A program made the translations under genes and the position numbers. From Patescibacteria group bacterium (GTDB lineage: Bacteria; Patescibacteriota; Patescibacteriia; UBA2591; UBA6264): DNA of 36,205 nt. This document shows, piece after piece, positions 1 through 11,133 of this stretch. Positions within the stretch are counted from its first letter, which is position 1; each line of letters opens with the position of its first letter. The DNA is taken from NCBI GenBank assembly GCA_021735685.1, contig JAIPGN010000006.1:1-36205 (forward strand), read 5' to 3'. A model generated the notes under the pieces. It had not been told where the DNA came from. It was given only the letters and a program-made list of their open reading frames with translations, and ran no database searches.

Positions 1-471
1 GTTTTTGCTCAAAATCTAAAATCTCAAATAAAAGGACTGGAGGAAAAATTGGATACTTTGCTTGACGCTCATTTGGACGGCACAATTACAAAAGAAGAAT
101 ACACCGCCAAAAAACAAAAAATCCTCAACCAAAAGATTGGGATTTCTGAAAAATTGAAGGATTTTGAGCAAAACGGCAATCATTGGCTCGAACCTGCCAA
201 AAAATTCATTTTAGACAGTAAACAAGCCGAAATTATCGCTTTTCAGGAAAATCTTTTTGAGAAAAAAGATTTTCTAAAAAAGATTGGCTCGAACCGAATT
301 TTGCGGGAACGGGAATTGGTTTTTGAGCCACGCGGAGCGTGGCAAATCCTTTTAAAATCAGACCTTAGCACCCGCAGGGCGCGTGCCGAGGCGCTTTGCG
401 CCGAGGCAACAAACGCCGAACATACAATTTGGCTCCGGAGGTGGGATTCGAACCCACGACAAACTGGTTAA
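1..471 (+). CDS. Serine site-specific recombinase, C-terminal fragment (5' end beyond window edge)
   Basis: Frame open to position 1 (VFAQNLKSQIKGLEEKLDTLLDAHLDGTITKEEYTAKKQKILNQK...), typical of large serine recombinase C-terminal coiled-coil region; last codons (RRWDSNPRQTG) are antisense to the tRNA-Asn 3' half. Confidence 0.75.
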   Translation, partial: VFAQNLKSQIKGLEEKLDTLLDAHLDGTITKEEYTAKKQKILNQKIGISEKLKDFEQNGNHWLEPAKKFILDSKQAEIIAFQENLFEKKDFLKKIGSNRILRERELVFEPRGAWQILLKSDLSTRRARAEALCAEATNAEHTIWLRRWDSNPRQTG

Positions 472-505
472 CAGCCAGTTGCTCTGACCCCTGAGCTACT
501 CCGGA
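430..505 (-). tRNA. tRNA-Asn(GUU), CCA encoded
   Basis: Reverse complement TCCGGAGTAGCTCAGGGGTCAGAGCAACTGGCTGTTAACCAGTTTGTCGTGGGTTCGAATCCCACCTCCGGAGCCA folds as a cloverleaf; anticodon loop CTGTTAA. Confidence 0.95.
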
Positions 506-513
506 TCATTAAT

Positions 514-777
514 TTAAGATTGATGATTTTTGATTGATGATTTATTTTTTATATATTCACGACCAGAACCTGATTTGAGATATTTTTCGCGTTCACGAGC
601 GATAATTCTATTTTCCAATTTTTCAAAATAAATCAATTTAAATGGACCTCTATTCTTTGTTGAAGGCGTAGAGGCAACACCATTATTGTGTTCTTTAACC
701 CTTCTTTCTATATTATTAGTCATCCCGACATAAAACTTACCGTCTTTCTCGCTTTTCAAAACATAGACGAAATACAT
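514..777 (-). CDS. GIY-YIG family nuclease (small single-domain)
   Basis: MYFVYVLKSEKDGKFYVGMTNNIERRVKEHNNG...REREKYLKSGSGREYI is the typical short GIY-YIG protein pattern. Confidence 0.92.
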   Translation of the reverse strand: MYFVYVLKSEKDGKFYVGMTNNIERRVKEHNNGVASTPSTKNRGPFKLIYFEKLENRIIAREREKYLKSGSGREYIKNKSSIKNHQS

Positions 778-801
778 AGTTAATTATTAACAGCCAGTTG
801 C

Positions 802-839
802 CCCTCCTTCAGCGAGTGAACTCGCTTACGGCGGGTAAA
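802..839. repeat. Short palindromic insertion in displaced tRNA-Asn copy
   Basis: 38 nt absent from the intact tRNA; contains GCGAGT-TC-ACTCGC hairpin flanked by CCGCC...GGAGG. Confidence 0.65.
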
Positions 840-850
840 TCTGACCCCTG

Positions 851-882
851 TCCTCCTGTGAGGCGGATCAGCCTTTGGCTGA
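851..882. repeat. Second short palindromic insertion in displaced tRNA-Asn copy
   Basis: 32 nt absent from the intact tRNA; TCAGCC-AAA-GGCTGA hairpin followed by TCCGCC-TCACA-GGAGGA. Confidence 0.65.
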
Positions 883-923
883 AGCTACTCCGAAACAGTA
901 ATTTATGATTTACGATTTAAGAA

Positions 924-1283
924 TTATGATTGATTATTTTTAATTGACGATTTGCGTGAAGAAACCATAATCGCCACAATCTCGTTAGTTTCTTTCAATA
1001 AAGCATTCAAAAAATCGCTTTTTATTATAGCATTCTTTTTAATAATTTCAAGCCAAAAGGCTGATTCATCAGCTTCTTCAATAACAACGCCAAGCTTTGA
1101 TATAAACTCCGCTTTTGATCGAGAACGACAAACGGCTCTATAGTTAGCTCCAACCGAAGTTCCGCTTCTAATTAATTGATTTCCTATCACTCGCCCCTCC
1201 ATTGTATTTGGCAACATTTTCACTAATTTAATTATACTCAAGGCATATTCTTTTGTTCTCTCCTTCAAAATTTCCGAGTTCAT
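924..1283 (-). CDS. Four-helix bundle protein (S23 / 23S rRNA intervening-sequence protein family)
   Basis: ...RVIGNQLIRSGTSVGANYRAVCRSRSKAEFISKLGVVIEEADESAFWLEII... matches the family signature. Confidence 0.93.
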   Translation of the reverse strand: MNSEILKERTKEYALSIIKLVKMLPNTMEGRVIGNQLIRSGTSVGANYRAVCRSRSKAEFISKLGVVIEEADESAFWLEIIKKNAIIKSDFLNALLKETNEIVAIMVSSRKSSIKNNQS

Positions 1284-1318: not shown

Positions 1319-2620
1319 TTAATAATAGTCTTGAATCTTTTTAATGCCTTTTAATTGCCGTATTCTCTCCAACGCCCTGGCTTCAATCTGCCTAATCCTT
1401 TCCCTGGTTACTCCAAAAACCTGCCCCACCTCTTCTAAAGTGTGAGCCACTCCATCTGATAAACCAAACCTGATATCTAAAATTTTCTGCTCCCGCGGAG
1501 AAAGATCAACAATAATCTCCTTAATATATTTACGCAATAAAACTAAAGCTGCAGCTCGATCTGGGGCCATAGTCTTGATATCCTCAATGAAATCAACTAA
1601 TTCCGACTCTTTGCCGTCATCATCGCCTCCAATAGTAGTCTCTAAAGAAATAACATCTTGAGAAATTTTCATTAAATAACGAGCTTCACTGGTTTCAATC
1701 TCTAGCTCAGCAGCTATCTCTTCTGGCGTCGGCTTTCTTCCTAATTGTTGTAATAAATAGCGGTCAGCGCGATGAAATTTTCCTAAAATTTCAACTACAT
1801 GTACTGGGATTCGAACAGTTCGTGATTGGTCAGCCAAAGATCTAATAATGGCCTGCCGAATCCACCAAGTGGCATAAGTAGAAAATTTATAACCCCTTTT
1901 CCAATCATATTTTTCTACAGCACGAAATAAACCAATATTGCCTTCTTGAATTAAATCTAAAAAAGTTAAACCATAACCAGCAAACTTTTTGGCAATGCTA
2001 ACCACTAACCTCAAATTAGCTTCAATTAATTTTTGGGCCGCCTTTTTGTCCCCAGCATCTTTTTTTTGAGCCAATTCTACCTCTTCCTCAGAATCAATTA
2101 AAGGCACGTGACCAATTTCTTTAAGATACATTTGAATAGAGTCAGCCGAAAGCTTAGTGAGGTCAAAAAAGAGCTCTCCTTTCTTTTCTTTTTTTTCCGA
2201 AGAAAGGCTTAAAAGATCATTATCAGATTCCATCACTTGAATACCAGCTTTCTTTACCTCCTCTAGAAAGGCCTCGTAATCGGGCAAATATTTTTCTACT
2301 CGTGGAAAAGCATAAAGAATTTCATTTTGAGTGATAAATCCCCTTTGTTTTCCTTTAGCCATCAACTCTTGGGCTGCTTCTTGGGGCCACTGAAAACGAG
2401 AAGCTCTTTTCTTTTTTGGAGAAGTCTTTTTTGCTTTCTTTTTTTGAGGTTTCTTAATAACCTTCTTACTTGTTTTTTTGCTTTTTGAGCCAGCTTTCTT
2501 TTTTAAAGAAACACTAGCCTTGGTTTTCTTGCGAGAAGAAACCTTTCTAGCTTTTTTTCTCTTAGAAGAAGAGAACTTCTTATTTTTTTTACTCTTAGAA
2601 GAAGAGGTTTTCTTTTTCAT
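1319..2620 (-). CDS. rpoD: RNA polymerase primary sigma factor (sigma70)
   Basis: [83 protein letters not shown]-terminal [25 protein letters not shown]; Lys/Ser-rich N-terminal extension. Confidence 0.97.
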
Positions 2621-10000: not shown

Positions 10001-10086
10001 TGGCGGAGAGGGCGGGATTCGAACCCGCAAGTCCTAAGGGACGCCAGTTCTCCAAACTGGTGGAATAACCGTTATCCGACCTCTCC
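10001..10086 (-). tRNA. tRNA-Ser(GGA), CCA encoded
   Basis: Reverse complement GGAGAGGTCGGATAACGGTTATTCCACCAGTTTGGAGAACTGGCGTCCCTTAGGACTTGCGGGTTCGAATCCCGCCCTCTCCGCCA; long variable arm; anticodon GGA. Confidence 0.93.
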
Positions 10087-10101: not shown

Positions 10102-11133
10102 TTATAATTTTTTCTTTAAATTTAAAAAATTTTTCAACCTTTTGGAATGATATGAGTTACTAAAGCCAATCTCTTGATAATATCGCAGAACTTCATGTTT
10201 CCTGTATAGACGAACGCTACTACCTCCCTGCTTTTTCGGAGAAAAATTATATATTTCTAATGTATTGTAAACAAAATCTAACAAGGGAATAGATTTATTG
10301 GTAAAAGCCAAACCAATATTATAATGATTATATCCATGACTATTGTGTCTGTGCCCGTAGACACAACCGTCAGTATCTATTAATCCCCGAAGGCAACTTT
10401 TAGAAAATTTTTTATTTTTTTTAATCCAGATAGGAACACCTACCTGATTTTTGACCTTATTCCCTTTTTTTAAGCCTCTTGCTAACAAAAAATCTACTAA
10501 GTTGCTGCTGGAAATTGTTATTCTAACCACTTTTTTACTTTTTGGTGATTGAAGACAATAAACAGCTGGAGTTAATTTGAATAAATTTTTAATCAAAGAA
10601 CAAATAAAACCAATATATTGACGACCATTTTCTTTATGCACGGTAACAACTACTTGATAATCGCTACCTATTCCTCCATCCCCTAAAATAATTCCTATGA
10701 ATTCTGCTAATTCTGTGCTATTACCAGGCCTAGATATATCCTTTTTTAAATTACATTTTCTGTAAAATTCAGGATATTTTTTTCTTCTCTGTTGAGAAAT
10801 CAATCCTCCCCTTACTCTCCCTTTTGGCGTCCCGGGGTTACCATGCCTTTCGACAACTTTTAGACCTCCTTTGCGTGCCGCCCTTGATGCGCTCCAAAAG
10901 TCTGGCAACATTTTATATTCAGGAATCTTAGTCTCTTTATTTTTCAACCCTAAACATATCCCAAATGCCCTATTAGACATTGTAAATTTTTCCCTGCGCC
11001 AATCAAACAACGTTCTTCTATGAATATTTAGTTCATTGGCTAATTGTGACCAGGTAAAGTTAGAGTGTCTGTAAACATTATTTAAAAATTTAGATTGACG
11101 CCCTTTTTTAAACTTAACTCTAGGCATATACAC
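10102..11133 (-). CDS. LAGLIDADG endonuclease with N-terminal helix-turn-helix-like region
   Basis: Two LAGLIDADG-type motifs (LAEFIGIILGDGGI and LRGLIDTDGCVY); N-terminal WSQLANELNIHRRTLFDWRREKF is HTH-like. Confidence 0.88.
   Translation of the reverse strand: MYMPRVKFKKGRQSKFLNNVYRHSNFTWSQLANELNIHRRTLFDWRREKFTMSNRAFGICLGLKNKETKIPEYKMLPDFWSASRAARKGGLKVVERHGNPGTPKGRVRGGLISQQRRKKYPEFYRKCNLKKDISRPGNSTELAEFIGIILGDGGIGSDYQVVVTVHKENGRQYIGFICSLIKNLFKLTPAVYCLQSPKSKKVVRITISSSNLVDFLLARGLKKGNKVKNQVGVPIWIKKNKKFSKSCLRGLIDTDGCVYGHRHNSHGYNHYNIGLAFTNKSIPLLDFVYNTLEIYNFSPKKQGGSSVRLYRKHEVLRYYQEIGFSNSYHSKRLKNFLNLKKKL

Follow-up and report, generated by a model that had tools for sequence, protein, structure and literature searches.

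The window analysed here is the whole 36,205-nucleotide (nt) stretch of contig JAIPGN010000006.1 from a Patescibacteria group bacterium (assembly GCA_021735685.1), and its subject is a small gene for a GIY-YIG nuclease that lies between an incomplete and a complete copy of a tRNA-Asn gene (Table 1). On the minus strand the order is rpoD, a 23S-rRNA-IVP-like open reading frame (ORF), the 5′ part of a tRNA-Asn, the GIY-YIG ORF and a complete tRNA-Asn(GUU); 9 nt separate the 5′ part from the GIY-YIG ORF, and 8 nt separate this ORF from the complete tRNA. The contig ends at window base 1. A preliminary description of this DNA had placed the GIY-YIG ORF 9 nt behind a tRNA-Asn 5′ half, its stop at 514 and the complete tRNA-Asn from 505, and these coordinates were confirmed. 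The 5′ half is real as well, but it extends from 894 to 787 and contains two hairpin inserts that had gone unreported. It is made up of three pieces, CGGAGTAGCT (892-883), CAGGGGTCAGA (850-840) and GCAACTGGCTGTTAA (801-787), which match positions 3-38 of the intact tRNA-Asn exactly. The copy stops at position 38, in agreement with the earlier placement of the breakpoint at the 3′ edge of the anticodon loop. Between the pieces lie two GC-rich hairpins, tcagccaaaggctgatccgcctcacaggagga (882-851) and tttacccgccgtaagcgagttcactcgctgaaggaggg (839-802), and because the copy is interrupted twice it is about 108 nt long. The chain score of this remnant against the intact tRNA-Asn was 34.6, whereas 40 shuffles gave at most 12.2, and both inserts fold far better than shuffled sequences (z values in Table 1). 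No second tRNA-Asn was present among the typeable ones of the 44 tRNA hits in the window's genome.

Table 1. Features of the tRNA-Asn locus and its surroundings in the window.
Feature	Position	Strand	Remarks
tRNA-Asn 5′ remnant, covering positions 1-38 with hairpin interruptions; its end lies at the anticodon loop's 3′ edge	787..894	-	
Insert 1 (hairpin of 32 nt), behind position 12 of the tRNA	851..882	-	minimum free energy -13.1, z -3.4
Insert 2 (hairpin of 38 nt), behind position 23 of the tRNA	802..839	-	minimum free energy -17.7, z -4.2
GIY-YIG nuclease ORF, 87 amino acids, intact, catalytic residues conserved	514..777	-	Pfam PF01541, E=1.1e-16
Complete tRNA-Asn(GUU)	430..505	-	ARAGORN; Rfam 72.3 bits
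rpoD, encoding the primary sigma factor; it precedes tRNA-Asn in the ancestral order and so shows which side of the locus is native	1319..2620	-	
23S-rRNA-IVP-like ORF, between rpoD and the remnant	924..1283	-	
Serine-recombinase-like gene, C-terminal part, cut by the contig end; antisense over the tRNA-Asn 3′ half	1..471	+	

Comparison with relatives strongly indicates that the ancestral arrangement was rpoD with one tRNA-Asn behind it: a single tRNA-Asn follows rpoD, usually at less than 400 nt, in 18 of the 29 rpoD loci of relatives across the class. The remnant therefore occupies the native position behind rpoD, and the GIY-YIG gene and the complete tRNA come after it. Genome G023, which belongs to another family, has a broken tRNA-Asn 5′ part, a GIY-YIG gene and an intact tRNA-Asn in the same order with a different hairpin, and rpoD-tRNA-Asn intervals that lack a GIY-YIG gene exist in relatives, showing optional presence at a fixed site. 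Two GIY-YIG-free intervals of this kind (L027 in G033 and L016 in G056) were seen to contain tRNA-like 5′ fragments, one of them hairpin-bearing and one inverted.

Filled and empty sites could be compared directly in genomes G006 and G018, which belong to one genus. At the genes for tRNA-Ser(UGA), -Gln, -Met and -Arg, G006 has a cassette and G018 has none, and each of the four empty G018 sites holds one tRNA copy. The flanks of the G006 insertions align to overlapping 20-34 bp stretches of the G018 site, including some bases upstream of the tRNA, which implies that insertion duplicated the tRNA start. For Met and Arg, both copies in G006 have variants that are absent from G018 (a D-loop deletion and C17, respectively). 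More generally, in 116 of 134 comparisons, with 6 ties, a remnant was a better fit to the tRNA of its own host than to the corresponding isoacceptor from a different filled host. This sharing of host-specific variants between remnant and intact copy favours a local duplication of the host's own sequence. Tandem duplication of a whole tRNA followed by decay was rejected as an explanation, as only 5′ parts occur and the sister sites hold one copy.

The recurrence of the layout was assessed in 203 distinct loci: every GIY-YIG relative detected in the order's 26 genomes was included, and samples from the class and from named genomes were added. A tRNA starting between -65 and +70 nt from the GIY-YIG stop was present on the same strand in 84 loci and on the opposite strand in none, with about one expected by chance; the enrichment beside tRNA genes anticipated in the preliminary description is thus found. 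These 84 tRNA-linked loci cover 33 isoacceptors. When the first 50 nt only of each tRNA were used for scoring, the 5′ part of the adjoining tRNA was detected upstream of the GIY-YIG gene in 63 of the 84 loci, against 57 of 2100 comparisons with tRNAs for other amino acids. A strict set of 61 loci, which excludes L061, L337 and L355 (non-5′ matches), passed both of the tests applied. The strict cassettes measure 285-515 nt (median 327) and occur in about 40 host groups, among them Bacteroidota, Omnitrophota, Chlorobiota and several groups of the candidate phyla radiation (CPR); one is present in the named strain Echinicola salinicaeni P51. Tandem cassettes were found at L049, L071 and L084. Where a GIY-YIG gene follows a tRNA, no convincing copy of the tRNA 3′ part was detected behind the GIY-YIG gene. 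The IVP family of small ORFs, which served as a control in the same genomes, had a tRNA at most 70 nt downstream in none of 29 loci (p=2.5e-5), and on these grounds the 23S-rRNA-IVP-like ORF was rejected as a component of the system.

Hairpins are a regular feature of the remnants. Counting inserts of 10 nt or more, the 61 strict remnants contain 67, and 55 of these have a folding z below -1.5; most inserts lie behind tRNA positions 8-26, in the D-arm, or 30-40, in the anticodon arm. GC hairpins called strictly were present in 34 of the 61 remnants and in 5 of 476 neighbouring control segments. The exact 20-nt palindrome CCTGCCTGCCGGCAGGCAGG precedes 21 of the 84 tRNA-linked GIY-YIG genes and none of the other 119; the possibility that it is a ubiquitous repeat was rejected, given 0-12 copies per genome, with most of the other copies away from tRNAs. 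Related cassettes have the type and place of the hairpin in common, as seen for L101/L356 (Asn), L085/L363 (Glu) and the window/L249 (Asn). In L249, a hairpin related to insert 2 of the window lies at the same place, with agatttacccgccg...ggcggg directly before gcaactggctgttaa. Members of a GIY-YIG clade thus agree in hairpin type and position, and for this reason the hairpin seems to be a component of the cassette.

The window protein consists of a single GIY-YIG domain, and the nearest solved structures are those of UPF0213 proteins and of SLX1, which is a structure-specific nuclease. Among the 84 tRNA-linked relatives, Y5, Y16, G18, R26, H30 and K68 are conserved in 100% and E64 in 98%. The nearest relative, L249 (66% identity), also lies at a tRNA-Asn and has the same break at 38. 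Comparisons with Seg/Tev proteins gave partial matches to homing endonucleases in PHROGs (E=5e-5) and a TIGR01453 score of 25.6 bits, with a cut-off of 56. Phage proteins are only distantly similar (at most 37% identity). A viral source was rejected: there were only two weak IMG/VR matches and distant phage relatives, and the one inspected had no adjoining tRNA. As judged from the protein tree, the clades of GIY-YIG proteins mirror the amino acid of the tRNA that was invaded, even between host families: 47 changes of amino acid suffice on the tree, as against at least 59 with shuffled labels, and the best match in another host family shares the tRNA amino acid in 39 of 84 cases, where 6 are expected.

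Together, these comparisons show insertion, duplication of the 5′ part, retention of a whole tRNA, a hairpin-bearing remnant and matching of nuclease and target. Our reading, to which we assign a probability of about 0.74, is that a small mobile nuclease cassette inserted in the tRNA-Asn gene behind rpoD and that the 5′ part of the tRNA was duplicated. The GIY-YIG gene would have gone in where the anticodon loop ends on its 3′ side, so that the original 5′ part, now defunct, stayed next to rpoD while the stop codon of the GIY-YIG gene came to be followed directly by a complete tRNA. Insertion into the tRNA, with a full tRNA regenerated downstream, had been proposed in the preliminary description, and it is borne out by the rpoD-tRNA-Asn synteny, the four empty sister sites, the layout recurring in 61 of 84 loci and the strong association of GIY-YIG genes with tRNAs on the same strand. 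The GC-rich hairpins probably keep the remnant from acting as a tRNA, a cutting site or an excision repeat; in other words, they may silence it, shield it from cutting or hinder excision between the repeats. Given the constant orientation, the native tRNA promoter probably drives transcription of both the cassette and the tRNA. As for cleavage and homing, we infer that the nuclease, related to UPF0213 and SLX1, most likely acts by cutting tRNA genes that are still empty and belong to the isoacceptor it prefers, and that repair would then install the cassette while copying the 5′ part of the host's own tRNA, probably by local duplication. The agreement between clades and tRNA amino acids lends indirect support to a putative site-specific cleavage of the empty allele with preferential inheritance.

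Several observations weigh against this reading. About one quarter of the tRNA-adjacent GIY-YIG genes lack a detectable remnant, and the remnant ends range from about position 16 to 60, with no single defined site. The model does not explain how the remaining intact tRNA is spared from cutting. Since similarity to the window protein governed which loci were sampled, the rates, including the 41% of loci linked to a tRNA, are not population frequencies, and the GIY-YIG tree rests on 84 columns with many unresolved forks. In addition, the tRNA-Ile, -Val and -Thr genes of the window genome have 5′ copies, ending at 35-39, and no GIY-YIG gene, and for this reason the 5′ duplication might arise independently. 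These copies lie at G000:C3:20691, C3:18946 and C6:22300 (L132, L135 and L137); the Val copy is without a hairpin.

Such copies are what would be expected if partial 5′ duplications of tRNAs arose alone, by replication slippage or by tandem duplication and decay, and a GIY-YIG gene settled between the copies later because insertion there harms nothing. A further GIY-YIG-free 5′ copy, at the tRNA-Ser(GGA) of G018, fits this scheme too. The scheme is nevertheless unlikely in view of where 5′ copies occur: 61 of 84 tRNAs with a GIY-YIG gene have one, against 4 of 134 without (the test was run with 63 of 84), and while the window genome has them at 5 of 36 tRNAs, none was found at 66 tRNAs of GIY-YIG-free genomes, of which two only were checked. 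The lack of 3′ copies, the match between GIY-YIG clades and tRNA amino acid, and the single tRNA copy at the empty sister sites also speak against it. Furthermore, an inverted repeat comes after the G018 remnant and resembles the two ends of a GIY-YIG element with flanking inverted repeats, like L098, brought together, so that this remnant appears to hold the collapsed ends of one. Based on these ends and on the 0 of 66 tRNAs in GIY-YIG-free genomes, we read the GIY-YIG-less copies as relics of GIY-YIG elements, a reading with which independent duplication competes. The preliminary description had named tRNA pieces without the nuclease gene in relatives as evidence against its proposal; pieces without the gene do occur at three tRNAs of the window genome and one of G018, albeit not in the two GIY-YIG-free genomes.

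It would be more surprising still if the tRNA pieces were the attachment-site repeats of the bordering serine-recombinase element and the GIY-YIG gene its leftover cargo. The recombinase frame of the window does run antisense into the tRNA 3′ half and has its stop in the anticodon loop, one relative has a recombinase zinc ribbon domain, and G023 has a recombinase-like frame and the GIY-YIG layout together. Nevertheless, recombinase-like tails were present at only 7 of 78 GIY-YIG-tRNA loci, and they also occur at tRNA-Asn genes without a 5′ remnant (L009, L013, L021 and L029). The frame overlaps the 3′ half of the tRNA, whereas the duplicated part is the 5′ one, and cassettes of 285-515 nt are too small to hold a recombinase. 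An integrase as the cause is thus not supported, although the preliminary description had named the breakpoint as a target of many integrases, and the serine-recombinase-like gene, lying outside the GIY-YIG cassette, is by all appearances a separate visitor of the same tRNA. As an observation in its own right, a recombinase-like frame antisense to the tRNA-Asn 3′ half and with its stop in the anticodon loop was also seen at several tRNA-Asn genes that lack a GIY-YIG gene. A group I intron with an endonuclease ORF, to which the breakpoint had likewise been linked, was rejected: at the gathering threshold Rfam finds no intron anywhere in the window, and the downstream tRNA is complete. We consider it similarly improbable that the hairpin-bearing 5′ half is a functional leader controlling the GIY-YIG gene or the tRNA, with a domesticated nuclease. 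T4 homing endonuclease translation is controlled by RNA hairpins (PMC2988022), hairpins are nearly universal in the remnants, and the pieces of a remnant hardly ever differ from the host tRNA. Against such a role stand the patchy presence of the arrangement, the empty sister sites, the many tRNA species reached and a remnant length that is not conserved.

Integrative elements use tRNA genes as attachment sites, with the tRNA restored at one end and a displaced piece at the other. The mobile cassette that we favour has the same arrangement of restored gene and displaced piece, but it measures about 300 nt, has no recombinase, duplicates the 5′ part and contains only the GIY-YIG gene between the repeats. 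SegB of phages T4 and T6 is a free-standing GIY-YIG homing endonuclease in a tRNA cluster (PMC2988022, PMC13096335). Like the window gene it is intron-less and adjoins tRNA genes, inside which SegB cleaves, and the tandem tRNA-nuclease repeats of escape phages resemble the tandem cassettes. Unlike SegB, which belongs to phages, the window cassette is chromosomal and encodes a single-domain protein of 87 amino acids, and no report of a hairpin-bearing 5′ tRNA remnant or of a one-nuclease-one-tRNA cassette was found in PMC2988022 or PMC13096335. Mobile endonuclease ORFs accompanied by a duplicated gene end are known from fungal mitochondria, at Allomyces atp6 and at Glomus atp6, atp9, cox2 and nad3 (PMC3630166). 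There, too, insertion of the endonuclease together with a copy of part of the host gene keeps the gene functional and displaces the native part. In the mitochondrial cases, however, the copy is a foreign one of the 3′ end of a protein gene, whereas here it is a host-like one of the 5′ part of a tRNA; the duplicated part is not foreign, as both copies fit the host tRNA. The hairpins in the displaced part are an extra feature of the tRNA cassette. By analogy, the cassette may work like a SegB-type homing endonuclease combined with partial gene duplication of the fungal mitochondrial type. According to excerpts of PMC11270868, rRNA genes of CPR bacteria contain GIY-YIG insertion sequences, which are not introns, mostly at the top or base of stem-loops, and homing is doubted for them. 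Those insertions share with the cassette a GIY-YIG ORF in a structured RNA gene, the window remnant ending in the anticodon loop; they differ in that rRNA genes define the family and in that the excerpts present no duplication of a gene part.

The odds seem to us about even that the cassettes form a new class of mobile elements of about 300 bp, spread over several phyla, in which there is one GIY-YIG lineage per isoacceptor, the 5′ part is rebuilt and a dedicated disabling hairpin is a working component and not debris. No description of such a tRNA cassette was found in the open-access literature. If the class is real, it would be among the smallest self-sufficient mobile units, entering essential tRNA genes without loss by means of about 300 bp and one 87-amino-acid protein, and it could cross phyla because its tRNA target is so conserved. 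It would suggest a use, open to testing, for the numerous small GIY-YIG genes that CPR and Bacteroidota genomes contain, account for odd partial tRNA copies in these genomes and perhaps offer isoacceptor-specific nucleases. The case in E. salinicaeni P51, a named strain, makes the cassette accessible to experiment.

Related arrangements were noted elsewhere. A LAGLIDADG_3-like ORF (PF14528, E=1.7e-5) at window positions 10102-11133 on the minus strand ends 15 nt upstream of a tRNA-Ser(GGA) gene (10001-10086, minus strand). Directly upstream of the ORF lies GGAGAGGTGGCTGAGT, a canonical tRNA-Ser 5′ end that diverges from the adjoining tRNA-Ser(GGA) after base 8; this unrelated nuclease family may use the same tRNA strategy. 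GIY-YIG ORFs were also seen inside RNase P RNA genes, in an apparent P3 loop in L056 (G012:C87) and in another hairpin in L348 (G096:C1), and at most a few hundred nt behind a same-strand transfer-messenger RNA in six genomes (L100, L324, L361, L362, L372 and L379). Finally, many GIY-YIG genes away from tRNAs (L046, L047, L054, L062, L063, L067, L068, L093 and others) are flanked by inverted repeats of 14-23 nt, so that the ORF lies in the loop of a hairpin.
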